Source of the DNA: Lobulomyces angularis
Lineage: Eukaryota; Chytridiomycota; Chytridiomycetes; Lobulomycetales; Lobulomycetaceae
Direction of reading: 5' to 3'
DNA length: 15,732 nt
Assembly: GCA_027604685.1 (NCBI GenBank)
Contig: JADHYX010000450.1
Location: 1,303-17,034 of the forward strand
Shown: positions 28 to 15,732 of the stretch, piece after piece
Numbering within the stretch: the stretch's first letter is position 1
Layout of the letters: the number at the start of each line of letters is the position of its first letter
The notes under the pieces: model-generated
Databases searched by the model: none
What the model was told of the DNA's origin: nothing
Seen by the model: only the letters and a program-made list of their open reading frames with translations
Position numbers and translations under genes: made by a program

Positions 28-3000
28 TTATAACTCATCATTAATAAAATTTTTTTTTTCAAAATCCAACTTGGTAAATTCAATAAATTCATTATCATCA
101 GCGTCATTGTCATTTTCGACATTATCATCTTTAGGTATGTCCGATACACTATCTTTTGTTTTTTTTGAGTCTTGTTGGTCATTTAAATTGTTAGTTTTTT
201 CTACGACAAAATTTTTTTCCTCTTCATCATCTTCATCGTCATCTTTTGACTCATTGTTAACAAAATTTGTTTTTTCCTCTTTTTCTTCTTGTTGTTTATT
301 TTCTTCTTTTTCTTCTTTATTTTTTTTTAAATCACTAGCAAAAGTTTCAGTTGGAGATTTAATATTTAAATCTTTTTTTTTTTTTTGTTTTACTTCATCT
401 TCATTTTTTAATTTTTTTTCAAATTTTTCTTTATCTTCTTCTATTTTATTTAAATTTTCTTCTTTTTTCAATTCTTTTTTTTCTATTTCATTTTCATCTT
501 CTATTTCTTCTTTTTCTTGTAATATATTTTCTTCCTCTTCTTCATCCAACAAATCTACATCCTCCTCCTTTAGTCCAATTTCTTCTTGTAGCGGTATTTC
601 CACGGTATTCTCATCTTCAATTATCGCCTTTTGATCAACAACTTCGTTACTTTCCACAAAGGTATCAGAATGGCTCTCGTAGTTAGGAGAAGTATCCAGC
701 CGTTCTAACTGTGGGATTGTGCTTTCAATAGGATGGGAATTAGTAGATGTTGTTGTAGTAGAAACTGATGCAGTTTCACTTTTTGTATCACTAGTCTTTG
801 CTACATGGATAGCGGAAGAAACAGCCAACGAAATTTTTTTAAAAACATTATTATTTTTAAAAGAGTCATCATCATCATTTTTTTTTAAATTTAATTAAGA
901 AAAAAATATTTTTTTCTTTTACCTGTTTTTTTATTAACATTTGGAATTTCACTTTCCAAATTTTTTTTTAATTTGCTTAAGTCATCTACAATTGGCTCTT
1001 TAACAATTGATTTAACTTTCATTTCGTTGGTAATTGGGGTAAATGATGGTTCTAAAATACTTTCTTTTTTTGAAGTCAAAAAAGTTTCACTTGAAAGGTT
1101 TGTAGGTGAAAACGATGTTACTTCAGACTTCTCTTCATTTTCAGGTAAGTTTGTATTTTCATTATTGAAATTTTCTGTCGAAGGTGTTTTTGCAGATTCA
1201 AGTGAAAATGGGGGTGCCACTTCAGGAGTGATTGTTGTGCTAGTTGTAGTCACATCTAAAGTTTCAGTTTCATCATTGTTAGATTTTACGGCCTCATCTA
1301 CAGTGAGATCCAAATCTTCATTGATGTTGTTTTCCTTCTCACTCACAGGTTGTGTACTATCTTCTACTACTACCTCTGGCAACCCAACGACTGAAGTTAT
1401 TTTTTCCTTTTTATCATCAGTTTTTAAATTTTCAACATCTCCTTTATCCTTTTTAGAATTAACACTTTTTTCATCTGTTCTAATAGCATCTTCATCTTTA
1501 TCACTTTCCATTTTAACTTTTTCATCATTCATTTCATTTTTAATCTCATTTCGAGTAACTTCCGGGGTATGCTCTAATTTAACTGTTTCAACTGGATTGC
1601 TTTTTTTAATTGAAATTGAATTTAATTTAGGTAATTCTTTAATTTCTGAAGTACTAGTTTCAACATTTTCATTCGGCTGTGCGGAACTTGAAGGAGATGT
1701 TGCAGAGTTTTGTGTAAGAGATGAATTACTATTTTCTTTTTTTGATACTGGTGTTGCTTTTTTGGGCTTTCTAAATGGTATTTTTGGCGACTCAACTATT
1801 TTTTCCACAGTGAAGGTCGAAGACACAATTGAAGTCTGTGAAGAATCAATTTTCGCATCCAGTTTCGTTGTTAGTTTACTTTTAGATTGATCAGAGGTGA
1901 GCCCGTAATATGGAATGTTGATTTTGTCATTATTTTCGTTTTCGTTAAACGAAACCTCGAGATCCACTTTATTGTTGGTATTATTTACGTTACTCAAAAA
2001 TAAAACTTTTTGTAGTTTAAAGTATCCAGTACCACTCAACTTTGTTATAGTAACAGTTCTAGAAATGCCGAACATCACAGTTTCTAATGTAGTAGCACTT
2101 AGTCCTTGAAGAAAACTTAAACTCTCTTTAATTTTGAAATTTAAACAGTAGCTTAAAATGGTTTCCTTTGTTGCATCATTAATCAAAGTAAGAGTTCTCA
2201 AATTATTAACAGAACAAAAGTATTTCAACGTAAAAATAATTGTTAATGTCAGAATAAATACTGAACAAAAAAAAACAAAAATCGACTTTGACGGCTAAAA
2301 CAATTTAAAATTTAGAATATAAAATCCAAAAAAAATTTAGAAAAATATATATTTATTGTTACCTTTTGTGTTTTATCTTCAGTTTCAAAAACTTTGACAT
2401 TTTTTCCTTTAGAAATTTCCCATTTTTCAAATTGTTGATAGTCACTTCCTGCGCCAAAATGTTGTAAAGTTGGAACAGAAGAATCAAAAGTTGTTGTTAT
2501 GGACAATCTACCAGGCCTGGAAGTGTTTCCAATTGCAGCCTTTTCCGGTGACAATGCTTTATCACTTGACAATCTGTAGTGGTTAAATTCACTATTCATA
2601 GGAGGTGGAGCAATAATTTTCGCTGGTGGTGGTATGAATAAAGGAATTTTTTGCGAAATTAGAGGCGTTTCCTCGTTAACAACTTGAGCAGTGGTTCGAA
2701 AAGTATCGCCAGCTGGTTGTAAATTTGGAGCAACAGAATCTACTGGAGGTTTGTTTTGAAAGTTTGTACTATTCAAATGTGTGGTAGTTGTTGGAAAAAT
2801 AATTTCATTTTCACTTGTTTCATCTTTGTGGTTGTTGTGTTCATTACTCACTGATATTAATTCGTTGATTTTATTGAACTTCTCAGTTAAAGCATTTATT
2901 TTTTCAGTCATAAGAAGATTTTCCTTTTGTAAGCTCTTGTATTCATATGAATCTAAAATAACCTTCCTTTTTTGTTCAGAACTTAACTCATTATCCAAAT

Positions 3001-6000
3001 GTTGTGACCCAATTAAATCCCTGGAACCAGTGTAGTTGTTTGCTAAACTCCAAGCAGATCCTGGATTTGATTCTTGAACACCAACATTGTACAGAGTATC
3101 CAATAACGATTTTCTAACAGCCTCCAGTTCACTACTAATTACCTCTATATTTTGTTTTTCCTTTTCACTAAATTCAAGGTTTTGAGTAGGATCACTGGAA
3201 GCTGCTTTTGTCTTTGCAACAATATCAATAAATGGTATGCGCGCAATTTCCAATTCCGCTTGTACTGTAGCCAACTAGGAACAAAAAATATTAAAAAGTA
3301 TAGTTTTTTTCACTTTACGTCTGCTGCAACAGATGCCAGGTCCAAAATTCTTGATCCCGGATCCGAAAAATTGGAGGCGCGGCTTTTGGCATTTTCTATT
3401 GCATCTTTGGCACCAATGACTAAACTGCTCATCTGTTCAACAATATTTGGATTTCCAGATTCACTTTCCGAGTCATTATACATATCATCAGTTGAGGTAA
3501 AATCCATTTTAGATACAGTTGCTGGCTTTGGTAAGCTTTTTAAATGATCTAGCTCCCATCTCAAATTTTGATTCTCAGTGGATTTCAACTCCAAATTGTT
3601 TTTTAATTCAACAACTTCAAAATCTAATGCAGATAACTTTGCTTTTAGTTTTAAATATTCTGACTTTAATACAGAACTTTGTTGCTGCAATAAGGTTTTC
3701 GTTAATAATTTTTTTTTACTTGCAACTCCTTTCATAGCCAACTCTGAAACTTTTTCTGTTGCAGAAAGTGATTTTAGGTCAAGGTCGTCGCTTAAATGTT
3801 CCCAGCTCTCGACATCTTCCTCTTCAGTCACTACATCTGTACCCACACCTGCTTCTGCAGTTGCTGTAAAGTTTTCTTCCATCAACGCCCTCAAAGAATT
3901 CATACTCATTTTTGCTTTTGCAATTCTGGTCTTCATTGCATGAATTTCATTCAATTTCTGCTCCACTTCCTTTTTTGATACAATAACTTCCTTCTTGGTT
4001 TCTTCAACAATTTCTTCCCATTCTAATACCTTAACTTTAATTTCCTCCAATTGCTGAAGCAAAATACTGTTAATTGCTTCAAGCCTAGATACCTCTTTTT
4101 CAAACTTGGATTTTTCATTAATGGCGTCAATTTTTTCTGATAAAGCTTTTTGCAGTTTTGAATTTAAGGTTTCCCTTTCAGTAAGTAAACTTGCCGAAGT
4201 GGTAGCAAGATTTTTTATAGAATTACACAGTGGGTAAAAGTAATGATCTGAATTGGCTTTGTCATCGGTGACAATTGAGACGGATATATAGTATTGCTCT
4301 TCTGTAAAAAGTAATTCATTTAATGATACAAAAGCGCTCCAACCACATAATAGTGAAAAGTCGGGATTAGTTTCGTTAAATTCATATTTAAAAATAAAAC
4401 TTCCAGTGAATATTTTACTGGCGATCAAAAAAAACTGTTCTCCTCTGTAGATTTTTACTGTTAAACCTGTCAAAATTCTTAACCAATTTTCTTTCATAGC
4501 AACTTCCAAAGTATTTTTTATCGGTTTTAAATAAATTGAACTAATTTTACTTCCATATTCATCAACACCACCTCCATCAGGATAAATCAAAAGTTGCCAT
4601 TTTTGATCCTCTGATCCAAATACTGGTAATGTAAAACAAGAGTTAACTTCTAAAAGATTGACGCCTATAAATGGGTTTGGAAAGTGCTGTTCCATTGTAT
4701 TAATTTTAATTTCATCCTCTACAACTACTGATATTTGAAAATGCAAGGTTTCGTCAGTTTCTATTGCACTGTACACATCCTCGATAGCAAGAAAAGTTTC
4801 TTGACCTAAACAAAATGATTGACGTTAGCAGGCAAAATAAAAAATATGATTTTACCAAATCCGGTTGAACTTTCCCCATCAAAGCCTATGATACCAATCT
4901 CGTGGTCCCTTCCGTAGGATATTTGCATAACACATTCTCGTTGTCCCGATGAGTGGTCATAGTTCATTAATCCAACAGATATTGAAGAAATTTGTCGACG
5001 CCACTGGGTTCCAAGCGAAACCTCATCACTATTTTTAATTGGACGAAAAAACAAGCTCAAATGAGTATCCTTGCCTAATCCAACACCCTTGGGAAAAACA
5101 ACAGCTTGAATACGGTAGATATCCGAACTAAAAGGAATTGATACTAGTTTTTCTTCTGAAGTAGGATTCGAATAGTAATCTCTGGAAAAAGGTATTATCC
5201 AATCAAAATTGGTAGTAACGCTTTGAGGATAATTCTGGGTTCCAACTGAAGAATGTAGAAAATCCGCTGAATCCAGTGGAGGGACAGAGGCGACAACTTT
5301 ATTGTTATTTTCATAAACAGAATTTTGAACCGAAATATCACCTTGGTTGGCTAGATTAACATTTACAAATTGCATTTGTGAATTTTCAGCAAAATTAAGA
5401 TGACCATTAATGTCACTGGTTGGGACAGTTTGCTCTGGGGCAATACTATTACGCCAATCATCATTCGATGAACCACCTTCTGGATCAATAAATTGGGCTT
5501 CTCCCTCTGTAAAGGCCATACTTTGCTTTCTTTCATTAATATCCTGATTATTTACTAATTCTCCTTCATTTAAGACTGCATTTTTCTTTACTTGAGGTGT
5601 TGCATAATTATAATGATTAGAAAACTGTTCTTGCGTGGGCTGTTGCGAAGAAAAATCGTTATTGTCATTAAAATTTTCTTGAAAATATTGCTGTTGCTGA
5701 ATCAGAAGAGGTGAAATTGGCACAGGAGATATGGGAGAAGCTTGAGCATAATGAACTTGCTGTATTGTAGGAGATAAAGGAATTCCTGGATGAGAAAGTT
5801 GCTGTATCGTGGGAGAATTGCCCTGTGTCTGATTCTGACTAAAATCATAATTTTATTTTAATAGAATTAAATTAACCATTAAAGGTCTTTTCATTTTTAT
5901 ACCTATTGATGGAGTTACCCAAAATCTGAGAGTTCGGAAAATCAGAAACAGGCTCGTTTATATTTTTGTAGTCAAAAGGTTGTGGAACACTTTGTGAACC

Positions 6001-7238
6001 TTTAGAAAAAGGTATTTCATTGGCATGAGTAGTATATGGTTGGCTAGGGAGTTGAGTTGGTGAAAAGTGAGTAGTATTATAGATGGTTTCATTATAGTTG
6101 GGGTTAAGATCAGTTGAAAAAGTTTCAGGTGAGGAATAGGATAGCCCTAAACTGTCACCATTGTTATGAATAGTTCCATCTTGAAAGCCAAATAATCTCG
6201 CTAAAGAAAAATAAAAAAAAATTATTCAATTATAACATTATATATTTAAATACTTACGAGGGGAAACCCCATTCGGAGTTGGCGCAAGTCTGGATAATTT
6301 TTTGGCTGTTGGACTTGATTTTCTTCTTATAGCAGGGTGATCAGCTTTGAAGTTACTAAGTAAACAAATAAATTAAGAATCTTAATACCTGATCCATATC
6401 CGCCTATTTCGATTACACTAGCCCTCCTTTCGTCACCAATTGGAGGAGGCTGGCTAGTGCTTGATATATTACTATAAGTGCTGGTTCTACGAAAATCAGT
6501 GGTTGGGGGATTTAAGGTAGGTACGGCAAATTCAGCATTTGGTGCTGCCAAATTTGTAAGGCCACCACTAGTAGCTGGAAAAGCGTAGTTCGAATACTGT
6601 TGCTGGTTTTGTTGATTGTTTTGAGTGGCTTCGCCACCTTTTGAGTATCCTGAAAAACTAGGAAACTGCGAACCATGCTTAAAGTCAGGATCTGTCGAAG
6701 TTTGCTGTGGGAATTGTTGGTATTGTTGAGAAAACTGCTGATTATTTTGCTGCTGCTCATTAAAATTTGAACTATTTGAAGTAACTTGAGGATTTTTCAT
6801 TGCATCTTCAACACTAGCAAAATTATCTTGGGTATCATACTCTTGCTGCTTGTGGAAGTTATCTTGATTTTGATAATCATGTTGCTGATTGTAGTTGTCG
6901 CCATGCTCAAAAGTTTGTTGGTTATTATATGGAGCATTTACAGAGTTCTGATAATGCTGGTTTTGAGCATCCAGGGTATTAAAATTTTTCTGTTGTTGAT
7001 GGTGGTGTTGATAATTATTTTGGTTGTAAGAAAATTCACCTTGTTGACCACGATAATGTTCTTGATTTGGTAAATAATCACCTTGAGGGTTGTTTAGATA
7101 ATTGTTCCCACTGTTATAATGATTTTGATTAGAAAAACTATCCTGATTATTTAAGTATTCAGTGTTGCCAAAACTTTCTTGATTTTCATTTGAAGTGTTA
7201 TTTTGATCAAACTGATTCTGATGAAAGTTATTGCTCAT
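28..7238 (-). CDS. Giant tandem-MATH, coiled-coil, single-TM protein with Q/N-rich N-terminus and acidic C-terminal tail
   Basis: Eight exons read in one continuous frame: 7238-6389, 6344-6258, 6200-5903, 5838-4856, 4805-3319, 3274-2363, 2294-923 and 800-28. This gives about 2,253 residues; all introns are GT-AG with matching phases. The ATG at 7238 follows an in-frame TAA two codons upstream. Seen: residues 1-283 are extremely Q/N-rich; 410-460 hold repeated SPTIQQ. MATH 1 is about 620-775 (VVFPKG, LSLFFRPIKN) and MATH 2 about 787-920 (KWQLLIYPDGGG, GWSAFVSLNEL). Heptad-like coiled coil runs about 940-1060, with more at 1140-1180 and near 1350. A proline-rich patch (PLFIPPPAKIIAPPP) lies in exon 6. 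One hydrophobic helix is at about 1544-1563 (IFVFFCSVFILTLTIIF), preceded by lysines, then a small ordered region and long S/T/E/K-rich acidic sequence ending NDEL. Known: MATH domains bind peptides in TRAFs, SPOP and USP7. Inference: a cytosolic adaptor anchored to an internal membrane. No RING, BTB or protease domain is visible. The gene could be split at the exon 6/7 junction, but no ATG lies just upstream of exon 7. Confidence 0.78.
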
Positions 7239-8001: not shown

Positions 8002-9099
8002 TTAAACATCATATTGATAGGGAGTAAACCTTTCTTCTGTTGGTTCCTTTTTTTCTACTTTTGTATTTAAAGTCTTTCCTCCCAAGATTAAATGCTTTTT
8101 GGGAATAATGACATATCCACATCCAGATAACATGACTGAAATATTTTGAGTGATGTATATAAGGAAAAGGTTTTCTAAAGAAAAAGGTAAAAAAAAAGGA
8201 ATAAAATCAAATTATTACGTTGATGTCCAAGGTTAAAATAGAGAAAACCTAAAGTTGCACAGAAAACTAAAAATTGTACCCAAATAAAACCAAAATCAGA
8301 CACTATAAGGTTCATCATAAAGTTTTTGTAATTTCTTTGTACTCCATCTACCTTGCTTTGCTCATCGCCACCTGATTGATGCATTTGTTTGGCATGCCTA
8401 TAGTATTTGTATCCAAAATTCAAAACTAGTACTAGCATAAGCGTAAATGTCAGAATACAGCAGACTAAAGTAGAATAAAAATCGACTACCAACAAAATAT
8501 TTAGCATAAAAAAAAAAAAAAATACTTACCATTGTTGTAGCATTCCATTAAGTCTGGTTCACTGATTAATTCGTAGTGTATAAATTGTGCATAAGTATTG
8601 CAAAAGGTCAAGCAAAACAATAATATCCAGCTAAAAACTTTTAAATATTTAGTGAACTTGTCGTTGAAAATTGTAGCTCTAATGATTAGCGCTGCACAAC
8701 TAGCAGACCAAAATATCAAAAAAAAAGGAATTCCCAAAAAGTTATTTAACCACCAGCACTAAAAAAAAAAAATTTTTTTATTTTTAATTAACGGAATTTA
8801 ATTTCAGTAAAATTAAACCTCTGTATTTGTCCATCTGTGAGAACTACTCATTTGCATTGTTATGAGATTCATGCCTTGAGTAATAGCAGCTATGAAAGTT
8901 AAATACACCTATTTATAGTAAAAAAAAAAAAAAGTAGAATTAACTTTTTTTTTTTCAGTAAAAATTTTACCAACAAAGTATTTCTCTTTAAATTTTTCAT
9001 AGACTTTAGAACTATCAATAAGGTGAGCGCTAGAGCCATTCCTAATACAAAGGAGAGATCAGCAGAGTTAAAAACGTAAGAGGTTAATCCAAAAGGCAT
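8002..9099 (-). CDS. Seven-transmembrane, GPCR-like membrane protein (paralog A)
   Basis: Five exons: 9099-8971, 8908-8819, 8758-8530, 8485-8219 and 8174-8002, giving 295 residues, with every junction GT-AG and in phase. Hydrophobic segments fall at about 15-32, 44-62, 80-101, 113-133, 152-174, 208-235 and 240-258. That is seven helices with a short N-terminus and a C-terminal tail of about 35 residues. C74 (CWW, at the start of helix 3) and C146 (ECYNN, in the helix 4-5 loop) sit where GPCRs carry their conserved disulfide, and both are kept in the paralog starting at 14815. The loop before helix 6 ends in a strongly conserved block, NFMMNLIVSDFGF. No retinal-binding lysine pattern or DRY/NPxxY motif is obvious, so it cannot be placed in a named GPCR class. 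A receptor role is inference; a transporter-like or structural 7TM protein remains possible. Family not recognised. Confidence 0.84.
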
Positions 9100-10431
9100 T
9101 TGATTGAATTATGATATAGAGGTGGGCAAGGAATATCTTTGAGTTTTGTATGTAAAAAAAAGAGAAAATTTTATTTTCTAATGAGTAAAAGAAGGAAAAG
9201 TAATTATTTCCTTTCTGAAAAGTCTGTTTAAAACAACGATTTTTGAAAATAAAAAAAAATTTTTTTTTTTTTTATTTTTTTTTTTGAAGGCGAACTAAAT
9301 TTTTCAAACTCAGTTCTTGTAAACTAAAAAAATGAAAAACTTCTAAATCAGTACCAGTTCGCAAAGAAAGCTGCCACCTGTACATATTAACAGTGCGTTG
9401 AAAGCGTCCTCATTTCTTTCTTTTTTTCTAATTGGGATTAGCTTCAAAGGCAAGTCTGCATTGGTGGGTGTAAAAACACAAATTCCTCTGATACTCCTTC
9501 TACTATACGTCTACCTACAGCTTGCAACCACTGAAATCAAGCACAAGTTCTGAGCAGTCCATATTGAAGCTGATGGTGTAGCTGTAGTGAATTTTAATTG
9601 CAAAGAATGCTACAATTTACAGTTTTCCACTTAAATAATAACTAAGTTTCATTGTTGCAAAAATACATTTGCCTAACAATGACATAAGCATTGATGAATA
9701 AATAATGCGTTTTTATTAATTGAAATTCGACTTGAAAGATAACTAATGTATGAGAAAAGGAAAATTGTGATTATTTTAAATATTTTGTGGAGAGAAACAA
9801 GTTGTCGTCAAAAAATGGTGGCATTTTAAGGTATTTATTTTTCAGTTTCACTGTTTTGTTTTGGCACTCCGAAAGCAGCGTCTGAGTGAATACATCGCCT
9901 TCTCCAAAAGATTCATTTAGCGGTAAACGTTTTTTTTGGAGAATTATAGATACTATTATATAGGATAATAGGATGTATCATTCTGGAAAATGTAGTATGT
10001 ATGTTTGCAAAAGCGAAATAACATACACAGATTAGCTACCCAACTACAAAACGAAGTGAGAGCATTAAGAAGTTATATAGCAACTACATCATCTCTCTAA
10101 TCATACTAAAGTTTATGATATTCTGGGCAACCTTTCATATTCCAATAATTACATTTACTGCAGATAATTACTGAACCACCATTACAGAATTGCTGTTGAT
10201 TCCCCTCAATTTTCTTTACTCGTTAAAAATTTCTGTCAATTCTCTCAATTCTTCATTCTGTTATTCTTGTTAATTTCATCTAAACCTACTGATTTTGTTG
10301 TTGAAGTTCGCTACTTAAATCTGCAAATTTTTGTTGCTTTTTTTTCTTCCCCATCACCAAATTCACGTTACTTGCACTGAAAATTTTAGATTTAATTTTA
10401 AAACGCAGCCACATCAATTCAAACTTCAACC
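9100..10431. other. 1.3-kb gap between divergent 7TM and PQ-loop genes
   Basis: From 9100 to about 9340 it is AT-rich promoter-like DNA upstream of the minus-strand 7TM gene, including a stretch of A and T runs near 9250-9285. From about 9340 to 10430 the base composition is more balanced and holds the retroelement-like relic. On the plus strand there are short open stretches without good starts, near 10045-10175 and 10170-10380 (the second lies opposite the relic). No intact gene is supported. Confidence 0.55.
9343..10354 (-). pseudogene. Decayed gag/aspartic-protease relic of an LTR retroelement (tentative)
   Basis: The minus strand carries protein-like fragments broken by stops and frameshifts. 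A lysine/glutamine-rich start lies at 10354. In the same frame, after several stops, comes a zinc-knuckle-like CSKC...CPEYH at 10162-10115. Further on, near 9980-9777 and 9520-9440, are more open stretches. A clean 55-codon frame at 9510-9343 contains LPLKLIPI and, about 15 residues on, ALLICTGGS (9396-9370). That resembles the retropepsin active site (L-I/V-D-T-G-A-S) with the catalytic Asp replaced by Cys. The preceding frame appears to shift at a T run near 9475. The order, knuckle then protease, is that of Ty3/gypsy or copia gag-pol. The stretch is GC-richer than its surroundings. No reverse transcriptase, integrase, LTRs or target-site duplication were seen. Alternatives are chance open stretches or an unrelated dead gene. 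Confidence 0.38.
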
Positions 10432-11645
10432 ATGTACTTTCAATGCAATGCTACTGCCAGCGGCCTACTTCCTTACTCTTCTATCGAGTTCTTATTTCAC
10501 GAATGTGTATATGATACCAAGGGCCTGATATCTCTCTCCTTAGGTTTTCCTAATCCTACGTTTACAAAAATTTAACTTTTTTTCGAAAGGCTATTCGTCC
10601 ATTGTATTTTGGTTATTCGCACAAGTTCCTCAATTACTGAAAAATATGAAGCTACAGACATCCGACCATTTAAGTTTAGTATTCATGATGAATTGGCTAC
10701 TTGGTGACTTCTGCAATTTGGTAGGAAGTTATTTAACACACCAACAAAGTTTTCAGGTAATGTATACTTGATCTTTATTTTTTTAAAAAAAAGAAAAAAA
10801 AGAACGTAGTTTCTAAAATTTTAAAGTTGCTGTTTTTTTAACTGAATTAATTTTTTTTAGATTTATTTGGCGCTTTACTTCGTTTTTATTGACACAATGC
10901 TACTATTACAATGCTTATACTTTAATTACTTTAAAAAGATTTTGATTAGGAATGAACTTTACAATAATTTTTTTCAAGAAATTATTTTAGAAAAAATTTC
11001 AAAGCCTTTATTGAAGAATATTCACATATTTGCAATTTGCCTTTTAGCAATTAGTTCTTTTTTTATTTACCTCTACAACTTTAGTTTTAATAGTGTGGAA
11101 GAAAATTTTAATTTTTTGAACTTAAATTTTGGGTATGGAAAAAAAAAAATATCTTAAATTAATATGTATCTTTTAATTAGAATGGTCATATCTTATACCT
11201 CAACCGTTTTATATTGTAATTATAACGCACACCAATTATCGTAATTTAATATTTTCATTTTAAAAATTATGTTTAGTAACCTCTCGCATGCCTCAAATTT
11301 ATCTAAATTTTAAAAGAAAAACCGTCTATGGACTTGCTTTGGATATGTTTCTGTTGGCTTTTTTAGGAAACCTAACATATACACTTTCAATTTTAACCAA
11401 AAGCTTGGAACCTGCATACCTACTCAATAGTTTACCGTTTCTTCTTGGTTAGTGCAAAAAAAATTAAAATTTTCTTCCACTTCTAAGAAATTAGAAGATT
11501 TTTTTAACTTACTAGTTTCCTCTTTAATAATATTTCTTTTAAAGGATCTGGTGGAACTTGTTGTTTTGATTTTACAATTTTTTTCCAGAGTTGGTACTAT
11601 GAAAATAAAGATGAAGATTTAGAACGCTGCTGCTTACTCGAATAA
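10432..11645 (+). CDS. PQ-loop lysosomal/vacuolar cationic amino acid transporter (PQLC2/Ypq type)
   Basis: Six exons: 10432-10543, 10590-10756, 10861-11132, 11181-11215, 11277-11447 and 11545-11645, giving 285 residues, close to the roughly 290-310 usual for the family. PQ-loop 1 has VPQLLKN (P51-Q52) followed by LSLVFMMNWLLGDFCNLVGS. PQ-loop 2 has TSRMPQIYLNFKRKT (P201-Q202) followed by GLALDMF and, near the end, LLGSGGTCCFDF. About seven helices are predicted. N6-A7-T8 is a possible glycosylation sequon in the N-terminal, luminal-side segment. Known: PQLC2 and yeast Ypq1-3 export lysine and arginine from lysosomes or vacuoles; the two prolines act as hinges. The GDFCNLVGSYL stretch recalls animal PQLC2 in particular. 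The start and first intron (10544-10589, a weak GTTTTC donor) are the least certain part, chosen because they give the family-like LGYSS join. The C-terminus ends CCLLE and might carry a dileucine-like sorting signal (inference). Confidence 0.88.
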
Positions 11646-12071
11646 TGATTATAGACTAGATAAATATTATGATAATTATAGTGTGTAAAATTCATCTTAG
11701 TTGCAGAGTAAAAAAATTTAATTTACTGTATATCCACTTAATTATTTTTTTTTAAAAAATTTATTGGGTTAGTTTGTATTAGAGAGTAACTTTAAATTGG
11801 TACAAATAAATTTCACTTTATATATGATGAAATTAGTAAAATTCGAAAATGTCACAGCATCCACTGTTGCGTCCTTTTTACGAAGTGTTTAGTTGAAGAA
11901 CACTTACAATATTTAAAAAGTGAAAAATACCTTATTTAAGTTCTCAATTAACGATGAATTTTTCATCTTTTACTCGTTCTTCAAATAATAATTGGACAAT
12001 ATGCATTGTTTATCCTTACCTCTTATCACACAGAATATGAGGGTTTTTCTTAGAATCGTGATTGAAGTTTG
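11646..12071 (+). other. Intergenic between PQ-loop and 5-phosphatase genes
   Basis: 426 bp of AT-rich sequence joining two genes of the same orientation, so it must hold the 3' end of one and the promoter of the next. An AATAAA lies at 11805-11810. An imperfectly placed hairpin (AAGTGTT ... AACACTT, 7-bp stem, 9-nt loop) lies at 11883-11905. No coding frame was recognised. Confidence 0.5.
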
Positions 12072-14115
12072 ATGGAAAATATATTAATTCAAATATTGAG
12101 CTGGAATGTTAATACAAAAGCAGCATCTAAATCTAAATTAAAAGAGCTAAAATTATTAAATTTAATAAACACTCCTAACTTTGAAAATCAAAGTAATCCT
12201 CCTGATTTAATTGCCGTAGGTCAGAAAAAAACACTAAAAGATTTCCTTTAAATATGATAAGACTGTTATTTTTTTAATCTGTCTTATAATATAAAACAAT
12301 AATCATTTAAAAATTAATTAAGTTTTTTCTTAGGATTCCAAGAATTACTAGACCATTTCATCGCTTTGACGTATTCTCCTGAAGAATCTTATTTTGGGAC
12401 AAATAATATTTTAAATCAATTCAAAAAAAACCAGTTAAATATTCTTCTATCTTGGGTTGAAGAAATAAATGTGGAATTAGCAGCTTTACACAGTAATGTC
12501 AGGTATGCACCTTTATTCGCTAGCCGGGTTGTTGCTATAGGTTTATCTTTAACATGGTAGTTGTATCTTATTATTTATCTAAAAAAGGATTGTGCATCTT
12601 TGTGAGAATGGATTCTGGTGGAAGCAATGGGTACATTTCTGAGGATCCAATTATACAAGGTAATTTAATTAAACTAGTTTATTTTATTTTGTCGATAATA
12701 ATATTTTTAATAAACCTCTAGGAGAATATGATGATATTGTTGATGCTAATGCTGAGAGTAAATTTGGAATTTTAAATTGCAAATTTGGGTATAAGAAAAA
12801 CTTAACAATCAGAAGTGCTAACGGTAAATATTTTGAAAATATTAAGTAAATTAGGAGTAGGACTTGGTGGATTTTATGGAAATAAGGGAGCAGTAGCGTT
12901 TAGCTTTGACTTGCAACTTGCTGCAAAAAAAGACCATGCAGATCCTCAGGTGATTTCCATTTGCTTCTTGAATGCTCATCTTCAAGCACACGAAGGTCAC
13001 CATTATTTTTTATGCAGAAATGAAGATTTGAAACAAATTTTTGATTGCCTAGTATTGAGCCCTGTTTTAGGGTCGCTTTCTAGAAGCACAAGTCTATTTT
13101 ATAGGAATCCTATTGGATTCTTAAAAAACTTCATTTACCCTTATCATATCGACAATGAAATAGATAATGAAGAAGGGATTAAGAATTTGTATAGCCATAA
13201 TGTTATATTCTTATTTGGTGATCTTAATTATCGATTAAAAAAAAACTTTAATTTTACACGAGAGGAGCTCCTTTCCAATTTAAAAGAAAATAACGTTGAA
13301 AAAATTTTTGAATTTGATGAATTGCAGTTTTTATTGAAAAATGTGAACAGGGGTGTCTCGGAAGTTATTGTTGACAGTATCTCTCAAGGTGAATTTAACT
13401 TTCCAAGTTGCTATAATGGTTTTGAAGAGCATAAAGTTACCTTTCCCCCGACATACAAATTTAGTATAAAAAATGATAAGAAAAAAAATAATGCAGTTGG
13501 TGACGAAACGACTGGGAACAATGTGGAATACTCAACGAAGAGATTTCCTGCTTTTACAGATAGAATTTTATTTAAAAAGACTTTGGGTAGTGCTGTAAAT
13601 ACTAATAACTGGATCAATTCTAAAGTTTTATGTCACTATTACAATAGTGTTACCAAAATGCATGGTACAATATTAATTTCGTTAATGCATTTTTTATTGA
13701 TTTTTTTTACTAAAAAGGATTTTCCGATCATCAACCGATATCCGGATTATTTGAAATACAAGGAAGTTTTAAAGATGCAATAAACAAGGATGGAAGCAAA
13801 CAAAATCAACTAACAGACTGCAACCGTTTGAAGAGAATTGACCGAGTGGAAAAAGCTGTTGTTGCTAGTTTGAAAGTAAAAAGCTCCAAATTATATGATG
13901 AAAGTCTTCTTGTTGATATGAAGCTGGTAAAAAAGTTAAGATGGGAAAGAATTCTTAAACTTGCCGTTATACCATCACTTTATATGGTAAGTTTACAAGA
14001 GCAATTTTTTTTTTTTTCAATGTTAACTATCTTATTTTATTTGTAGATTGGATCTTTTAGTTTTTTTATGTGCCTTTCTTATTACCTTTACTTGAATAAA
14101 ACAAAATTTTATTGA
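12072..14115 (+). CDS. Inositol polyphosphate 5-phosphatase with C-terminal membrane tail (Inp54-like)
   Basis: Seven exons: 12072-12219, 12334-12540, 12588-12659, 12722-12823, 12855-13664, 13718-13986 and 14047-14115, giving 558 residues. The IPPc (exonuclease/endonuclease/phosphatase-fold) domain spans about 5-460. Its motifs come in order: SWNVN near residue 10; GFQEL with metal-binding Glu53; GNKGAVAF at 185-192; NAHLQAH at 216-222; GDLNYRL from 298; FPPTYKF; RFPAFTDRIL from 406; and SDHQPI at 449-454. Known: these enzymes remove the 5-phosphate from PI(4,5)P2 and related inositol phosphates or lipids using Mg2+. The last about 30 residues form one hydrophobic stretch (about 528-552, SFSFFMCLSYYLYL) with a short polar end, the tail-anchor layout used by yeast Inp54 at the ER. 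Several motif positions differ from consensus (HLQAH for HLAAH, PAFTDRIL for PxWTDRIL), but the catalytic Asp, Asn and His residues I can see remain. No Sac1, SH2, RhoGAP or ASH domain is present. Confidence 0.92.
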
Positions 14116-14814: not shown

Positions 14815-15714
14815 ATGAAAATGTCTGGATTAACCTCTTATGAATTTAACTCTTCTGATCTCTCATTTGTTTTAGGAATGGTTGAAGTAGTAACGATTTT
14901 AATTATATTAAAAACAATCAAAAAATTGCATAAAAATACTATTTTGGTATGAGATAAAGTTGGAAAAAAATAAACTAAATAAAAAAATATAACCTATTAG
15001 ATTTATTTGACTTTAATTGCTGCTACAACTCATGGAGTTAATTTAATAACTATGCAATTAAGTAGTTCTCATAAATGGACATTTGGTGAGGTAGTTAAAT
15101 TAAAAATAATATTTTATTTTATTTATCTTTTTTATTTTTTCGTTTTTAGTGCTGGTGGATTACTAATCTACTTGGAATTCCATTTTTTGTTAGTTTTTGG
15201 TCGGCTAGTTGTGCAGTTTTGATTATAAGGTCAACAATATTCAAAGATAATTTTACCAAACACCTCAAGATTTTTAGCTGGTTCTTACTATTCTGTATAA
15301 CGTTTTTTAATCTTTATGCCCAATTGGCCGATTACCTTCTAATCAGTAATTTTGAAAAATTGGAATGTTACAATAATGGTAGCAAGAAGAAAAATAAAAA
15401 TAAATACAAAATTCTTTATTACCTATTTTTACTTTAATTCATATTAACAACCTTAATTTTGTTAGTTGACTTTAATGCTACTTTAATATTCTGTATCTTG
15501 ACTTTTATTTTGATGTTGCTGTTAGTAACAAATTTCGGATATCGCTATTGTGAGCATATGAAAGAGATGGCAGAATTTGGAGGGTTGACAGCGCAATCAA
15601 CATATAAAAATTTTATGATGAATTTGATTGTTTCTGATTTCGGATTTATAGCAGTTCAGTTTATTGTTTTTAGCATTACTCTATTTTTTCTTTATTTTAA
15701 CCTTGCGGATCAAA
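14815..15714 (+). CDS. Seven-transmembrane, GPCR-like membrane protein (paralog B), 3' truncated by window end
   Basis: Four exons lie in the window: 14815-14946, 15001-15090, 15150-15378 and 15466-15714. The last ends at a GTAAGT donor, so a fifth exon encoding helix 7 and the tail should follow beyond 15732. The protein is plainly homologous to the minus-strand gene at 9099-8002 (shared GLTSY, FNS.DLSFVLGM, LITMQ.SSSH.WT, FWSASCA, NFMMNLIVSDFGF). Exons 2 and 3 have identical lengths (90 and 229 bp), and intron phases are the same. Exon 4 is 18 bp shorter because the helix 5-6 loop is six residues smaller. The two cysteines at the start of helix 3 and in the helix 4-5 loop are kept. An in-frame ATG at 14821 is an alternative start and would remove two residues. 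Introns are not alignable by eye, so the duplication is not recent. Confidence 0.85.
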
Positions 15715-15732
15715 GTAAGTAAAAACAAAAAA

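Follow-up and report, generated by a model that had tools for sequence, protein, structure and literature searches.

We analyzed a window of 15,732 nucleotides from the chytrid Lobulomyces angularis (contig JADHYX010000450.1), the reverse strand of which carries a gene for a protein of 2,253 residues with two MATH domains in tandem, followed by a coiled coil, one predicted membrane helix, and a long tail. The same order was found in a paralogue and, apart from the start of the first MATH domain (MATH1), in the environmental protein P0002; the membrane helix was the top hydrophobic segment in all three. Judged from sequence, this domain order, absent from the literature searched, defines a small family that comprises three environmental proteins and the two genes of a single chytrid genome, and it places a TRAF-like MATH domain on a membrane anchor in a fungus. 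TRAF-like MATH domains are better known from animals, plants, and amoebae. The reading that we favor, as probable but by no means secure, is that the product is a single-pass, probably type II, membrane-fixed MATH adaptor that would gather client proteins for a separate enzyme.

Tandem MATH domains and absence of the usual partner domains

Homologue searches, in which scoring covered the 7,985 and 7,991 candidates with the most words in common (961 candidates in a third search), yielded P0001, the product of the window's own gene, and the three environmental proteins P0002, P0003, and P0004. The initial annotation had proposed two MATH domains in tandem, and this was borne out jointly by Pfam MATH_2 scores, profile-profile comparison (for MATH1 and MATH2), and predicted structures. 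In the Pfam profile search, three proteins exceeded the MATH_2 cut-off of 32 bits (P0001, 39.1; P0003, 48.7; P0004, 36.8), whereas the whole window protein remained just below it (31.5); the paralogue (31.2), the truncated P0002 (15.0), and MATH2 (score given below) also fell short. MATH2 of P0003, cut out alone, gave no Pfam match at E values up to 10. A MATH fold was predicted for both domains, for MATH1 on the model of a relative (P0003) and for MATH2 on that of the window protein. Such fold matches indicate the MATH fold and not which MATH family, and a family outside those listed is possible; in the structure comparison, MATH1 scored slightly higher with SPOP than with TRAF4 (14.7 versus 13.4).

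By its sequence, MATH1 is TRAF-like. When its profile was compared with the PDB at E values up to 1, 22 of 22 distinct sequences matched were TRAFs, with the stretches G.G.G..THLS and GFG....F in common. Exon 5 of the window gene gave one match to PDB sequences (E 0.64), and P0003 gave none. The whole-family profile obtained 34 matches at E values up to 1, among which TRAF chains (from 0.02) were mixed with bZIP and other coiled-coil chains.

None of the usual partners of MATH domains was visible, as had been noted initially. Pfam scans of six proteins (the window protein, P0001–P0004, and the paralogue) revealed no match to RING, zinc finger, BTB, or peptidase/ubiquitin hydrolase domains, and no family other than MATH_2 reached its cut-off. 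Names appearing below the cut-offs (Mis12, DivIC, YabA, ATG14, ATG16, KASH_CCD, Rab11-FIP3, Acyl-CoA_dh_2, P2_C, and more) were taken as chance.

Coiled coil and conserved helix

In the models of P0003 and of the window protein, the last MATH2 strand passes directly into a long helix. Residues 921–1054 had a best hydrophobic period of exactly 3.5, and 0 of 2,000 shuffles was as strong. For the later helical stretches and the conserved helix (LDLASV.ADLATVQAELEIAR.PF), no 3.5 signal was obtained (matched by 564, 322, and 254 of 2,000 shuffles). Because the later stretches lack the period signal, only residues 921–1054 are called a coiled coil with confidence on this sequence criterion.

Gene model and family

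The eight exons could be rebuilt and joined in phase, in line with the approximately 2,253 residues annotated (coordinates in Table 1). The coding sequence comprises 6,762 bases (2,253 residues plus stop), and the seven introns, of 44, 57, 64, 50, 44, 68, and 122 bases in order, are all GT–AG. Over exons 1–7, the translation agreed with P0001, an NCBI partial protein (HK099_007681) from the chytrid Clydaea vesicula (Lobulomycetales); among 1,996 residues there were 8 differences. Because of these differences, and because exon 6 had a single match in the genome assembly searched (20.76 million bases, 533 contigs), the NCBI record probably derives from another assembly or haplotype than the window. 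Exons 1 and 2 join in phase with the AG at 6345, which P0001 also uses; the earlier AG at 6356 would introduce a stop, as read from the sequence.

The NCBI model is marked partial; its end coincides with the donor of exon 7, before exon 8, for which no counterpart was seen in P0002 or the paralogue. Exon 8 has no stop in its reading frame, versus 2, 13, 15, 16, and 48 in the other five. Its codon score, trained on exons 4–6, was the highest among the exons tested (0.67 bits; 0.27–0.47 for exons 1, 3, and 7), a value that its acidic make-up could raise; the exon itself is confirmed by no relative. On the stop counts and codon score, we hold it unlikely that exon 8 is noise. It contains no methionine codon and must therefore be joined to something upstream; the intron preceding it (122 bases, 922–801) is the longest.

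P0002 comprises 1,170 residues, which require 3,510 bases of its 3,541-base contig; it is therefore a single open frame that begins within MATH1 and extends across the membrane helix into the tail. P0003 and P0004 end shortly after ...KKHRKQ and ...SSRRQ, with V as the next residue in both cases, as if a GT intron at the junction before the membrane helix had been read through. The window gene and the paralogue both have a phase-0 intron directly before that helix, which suggests that the intron is old in the family. A wrong joining of two genes, one for MATH domains and coil (exons 1–6) and one for membrane helix and tail (exons 7–8), could be argued from the ends of P0003 and P0004 just before the helix and from exon 8 with its missing methionine codon and long intron. 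It is, however, very improbable: P0002 stays open across the corresponding junction, the paralogue shows this phase-0 junction as well, followed by its own helix and tail, so that both carry both halves, the NCBI model also joins exons 6 and 7, and the ends of P0003 and P0004 (KQ then V, RQ then V) resemble intron read-through. The data thus do not require the gene to be divided at the boundary of exons 6 and 7.

The paralogue, on contig C432 of the same genome, was 35% identical over P0001 residues 660–1028 and 32% over 1119–1331 in a protein search. It begins with approximately 130 N-, S-, and H-rich residues and continues with MATH1, MATH2, helices, membrane helix, and tail. Frames beside it resembled a methyltransferase and a hexokinase by eye. 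In a tree of the five members, P0002 and P0003 were joined (support 52), followed by P0004 (94). A genome search with PF22486 (MATH_2) found the window and a USP7-type gene on another contig (C388), and missed the paralogue; the count of MATH genes in the genome is therefore a lower bound. PF00917 gave no match anywhere in the genome, controls included, and was thus uninformative.

Table 1. Coordinates of the gene, its predicted protein features, and the paralogue (window positions unless a locus is given)
Feature	Position	Strand	Remarks
Whole coding span	28..7238	(-)	8 exons, 2,253 residues; spliced translation
Exon 1	6389..7238	(-)	Q/N-rich N-terminal arm
Exon 2	6258..6344	(-)	matches P0001 model
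Exon 3	5903..6200	(-)	matches P0001 model
Exon 4	4856..5838	(-)	low-complexity linker and most of MATH1
Exon 5	3319..4805	(-)	MATH1 end, MATH2, first coiled coil
Exon 6	2363..3274	(-)	second helical part, linker, juxtamembrane part
Exon 7	923..2294	(-)	membrane helix and first part of tail
Exon 8	28..800	(-)	acidic tail, C-terminus NDEL
MATH1	4714..5216	(-)	residues ~620–770, interrupted by intron 4855–4806
MATH2	4222..4647	(-)	residues ~793–934
Coiled coil	3862..4221	(-)	residues 935–1054; continues directly from last MATH2 strand; helix in model
Acidic W-x-x-L motif	3784..3816	(-)	residues 1070–1080 (W1074); Atg8-interacting-motif-like; weak
Most conserved helix outside MATH	3194..3360	(-)	residues 1222–1262, split by intron 3318–3275; five-member alignment
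Juxtamembrane FEKWEI motif	2414..2431	(-)	residues 1517–1522
Phase-0 intron directly before membrane helix	2295..2362	(-)	same place and phase in paralogue
Predicted transmembrane helix	2226..2282	(-)	residues 1544–1562, hydropathy 2.71
Paralogue	L012 2175-5788	(+)	four exons, 1,155 residues

N-terminal arm and tail

The Q/N-rich region and the acidic tail described initially are both present in the window protein (Q plus N, 43 of residues 1–100; D plus E, 35 of residues 2101–2200) but are not family features. In the alignment, P0003 and P0004 have approximately 50 and 40 residues ahead of MATH1, without a long Q/N-rich arm. As the relatives share neither this arm nor the last acidic exon, both are regarded as additions. 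Beyond the membrane helix, the tail of the window protein was measured at 690 residues, close to the 700 annotated, and those of P0002 and the paralogue at 411 and 302; all three appeared to be of low complexity by eye. Homology among the tails is not claimed, since window and paralogue matched only at E 0.003 (94 residues, 27% identical) and the P0002 tail matched no other tail at E values up to 10. A KASH/LINC assignment was dropped because tails of 302–690 residues are far longer than KASH peptides as generally known.

Predicted membrane helix and topology

A single strong hydrophobic segment was predicted in the window protein, with a 19-residue hydropathy of 2.71 versus 1.32 for the next best, in agreement with the one membrane helix annotated. 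In P0002 (residues 740–758) and the paralogue (834–852), the top segment was likewise one helix, with values of 2.49 and 2.21. The juxtamembrane motif reads FE.W in the window protein, P0002, P0004, and the paralogue, and LEQW in P0003. Within 25 positions of the helix, basic residues (K/R) were more numerous on the N-side than on the C-side in three of three proteins (7 versus 3 in the window protein, 7 versus 4 in P0002, 5 versus 0 in the paralogue). According to the positive-inside rule, a basic flank marks the cytosolic side; the MATH side was therefore placed in the cytosol, and the protein is probably single-pass and type II.

A different topology, with either a real hydrophobic helix and a cytosolic tail or a helix that crosses no membrane in a structural protein of the coiled-coil kind, would fit the tails of the window protein and P0002, in which glycosylation sites are not enriched and the net charge is −60 and −28, respectively. 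We consider it improbable, given the N-side basic excess in three of three proteins, hydropathies of 2.2–2.7 over 19 residues in the same three, and a start that did not resemble a signal peptide by eye.

The single pass with its basic N-side flank would also suit a receptor for selective autophagy of the endoplasmic reticulum (ER), that is, a type II ER protein with an Atg8-interacting motif whose MATH heads or lumenal tail choose cargo, similar to CCPG1 of vertebrates or Atg39 of yeast. A candidate motif, the acidic ESW[ED][NH][LV][ST]D (W-x-x-L/V), lies between the helices in the window protein, P0002, and P0003, in the last within a stretch with a predicted local distance difference test (pLDDT) score under 50. 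It is, however, absent from P0004 and the paralogue, so that two of the five members lack it, and its conservation is modest (5 of 11 positions identical across the three members versus a mean of approximately 3.5 of 11); whether its bearers form a clade is not settled by the tree. The C-terminal NDEL of the window protein, which we take to resemble an ER retrieval signal, was counted in favor of this explanation, but P0002 and the paralogue both lack it. The genome has matches to ATG8 and the KDEL receptor; since any fungus should have both, these matches carry little weight. Vertebrate CCPG1 is a type II single-pass protein with a cytosolic LC3-interacting region and a lumenal domain of more than 450 residues, and the available part of the source, which mentions no MATH domain for CCPG1 or Atg39, describes these receptors as single-pass with an N-terminal cytosolic Atg8-binding motif (PMC6772018). 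Taken together, an ER-phagy receptor is a rather improbable identity for the chytrid protein.

Proposed role

In the adaptor reading that we favor, the N-terminal 1,540 residues would be cytosolic and the coiled coil would gather several chains, so that the paired MATH heads might bind short peptides of client proteins at high avidity. The membrane helix would anchor this MATH array in an endomembrane, or else in the plasma membrane, with the tail on the other side, and the adaptor would deliver its clients to a separate enzyme, proposed because no catalytic domain was recognized in the protein. The initial annotation had suggested an oligomeric, membrane-held, peptide-binding MATH scaffold; its anatomy (MATH folds, coil, helix, and a single gene) is supported, whereas the function is inferred.

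Several observations weigh against the adaptor reading. MATH2 reached at best 20.1 bits against the cut-off of 32, and its profile gave no sequence match in the PDB. The TRAF matches of MATH1 were weak (best TRAF4, E 0.0013 for the whole sequence and 0.02 for the best stretch). The models were built on five sequences and had mean pLDDT values of 59.4 and 61.1; in blocks of 10 residues, values were 53–85 in the MATH parts of P0003 and 40–77 in MATH2 of the window protein. As P0003 and P0004 end ahead of the membrane helix, the latter is visible in only three of five members. N-glycosylation sequons per 100 residues were enriched, in favor of a lumenal tail, only in the tail of the paralogue (1.99 versus 0.72); they were less dense in that of the window protein (0.58 versus 0.91) and did not occur in the 411 residues of the P0002 tail. 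Peptide binding, oligomerization, membrane location, and the scaffold role are deduced from sequence features.

Comparison with known MATH proteins

The initial annotation knew of no named family with this full order. None was found in the open-licence literature searched, although plants do have MATH with coiled coil (RTM3) and tandem MATH domains. It contained no article that mentions a MATH domain together with both TRAF and chytrid, and none that links the domain to Chytridiomycota; tandem MATH, coiled coil, and membrane helix together were not described in the accessible text of the articles on MATH proteins.

With the TRAF proteins (TRAF1–6; TRAF-C/MATH with a TRAF-N coiled coil), the chytrid protein has in common the TRAF-type MATH1 and the linkage of a MATH head with a coiled coil. 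In TRAFs, however, the coil precedes the MATH domain, whereas in the chytrid protein it follows two of them, and the latter has no RING or zinc-finger match and has its own membrane helix. RING or TRAF-type zinc fingers are known from all TRAFs but TRAF1. No coil was found directly N-terminal to MATH1: the sole helix in the residues preceding MATH1 of P0003 had a pLDDT of approximately 25, and residues 1–284 of the window protein gave no heptad signal (residues 285–619 lay outside this test). Animal membrane receptors recruit TRAF trimers that are soluble and separate from them. The chytrid protein might instead be receptor and TRAF adaptor at once, with TRAF-like heads, oligomerizing coil, membrane helix, and an outward-facing tail in a single polypeptide, such that events beyond the membrane would directly cluster the cytosolic MATH heads; we regard this as a speculative option of low probability. 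If true, it would represent a fungal solution to TRAF-type signaling or membrane-bound cargo selection, and either it or the autophagy explanation would imply a novel mode of attaching MATH adaptors to membranes.

The order MATH then coil, together with heptad periodicity, is common to the chytrid protein and the plant protein RTM3 (At3g58350), likened here by description: RTM3 has MATH at its amino end and a coiled coil at its carboxy end (RTM3-type, MATH 13–136 and coil 137–301), is far shorter, and is given no membrane helix in the accessible text (PMC3377653). Brassica class I proteins have tandem MATH domains; class III proteins (MATH/Filament, AT2G25320) have approximately 1,650 residues, and a later paper did not detect the filament domain reported for them earlier (PMC3664471, PMC11644801). 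In Arabidopsis, TC1a contains four MATH domains; MUSE13/14 enter into complexes with SCF and nucleotide-binding leucine-rich repeat proteins, interact with ATG6 and SINAT proteins, and act in ubiquitylation and autophagy (PMC11644801). The accessible descriptions of these plant tandem-MATH proteins, on which the comparison rests, include no membrane anchor.

The chytrid protein could serve a ubiquitin ligase as a membrane-bound adaptor for substrates, with degrons or the ligase itself bound by its MATH heads, as in the plant TRAF1a/MUSE13 complexes. The SPOP-like MATH fold of the models, the lack of a recognized catalytic domain, and the MUSE13/14 complex itself would agree with this. On the other side, there is no BTB or RING match, and the likeness to the plant proteins is one of description; we consider the proposal doubtful but the least so among the alternatives. 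The ligase and ER-phagy explanations are special cases of the favored adaptor reading, and their probabilities overlap with it. SPOP (MATH-BTB) and USP7 (MATH with ubiquitin protease) share the MATH fold with the chytrid family, which has neither a BTB nor a protease match. The USP7-type gene of the same genome (L001), with a MATH match and a hydrolase part recognized by eye, is separate and was the only other MATH_2 location found.

Other features of the window

A gene with several hydrophobic helices is present twice, as diverged copies in inverted orientation, at 8215–9091 (-) and 14826–15718 (+). The copies have four matching blocks (71–76% complementary) with other genes between them, and the pieces scanned reached no Pfam cut-off. 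A gene at 12070–14110 (+) encodes an Exo_endo_phos2 domain (E 4e-25 on exon 12806–13780) and a hydrophobic C-terminal stretch, and resembles an inositol polyphosphate 5-phosphatase by eye. The small gene at 10640–11645 (+), with several hydrophobic helices, appeared PQ-loop transporter-like by eye; the piece scanned had no Pfam match. Approximately 1.3 kb at 9340–10650 contain no listed frame of 80 residues, have no second match in the genome, and show a GC content of 30–32% versus 27–28% beside them.

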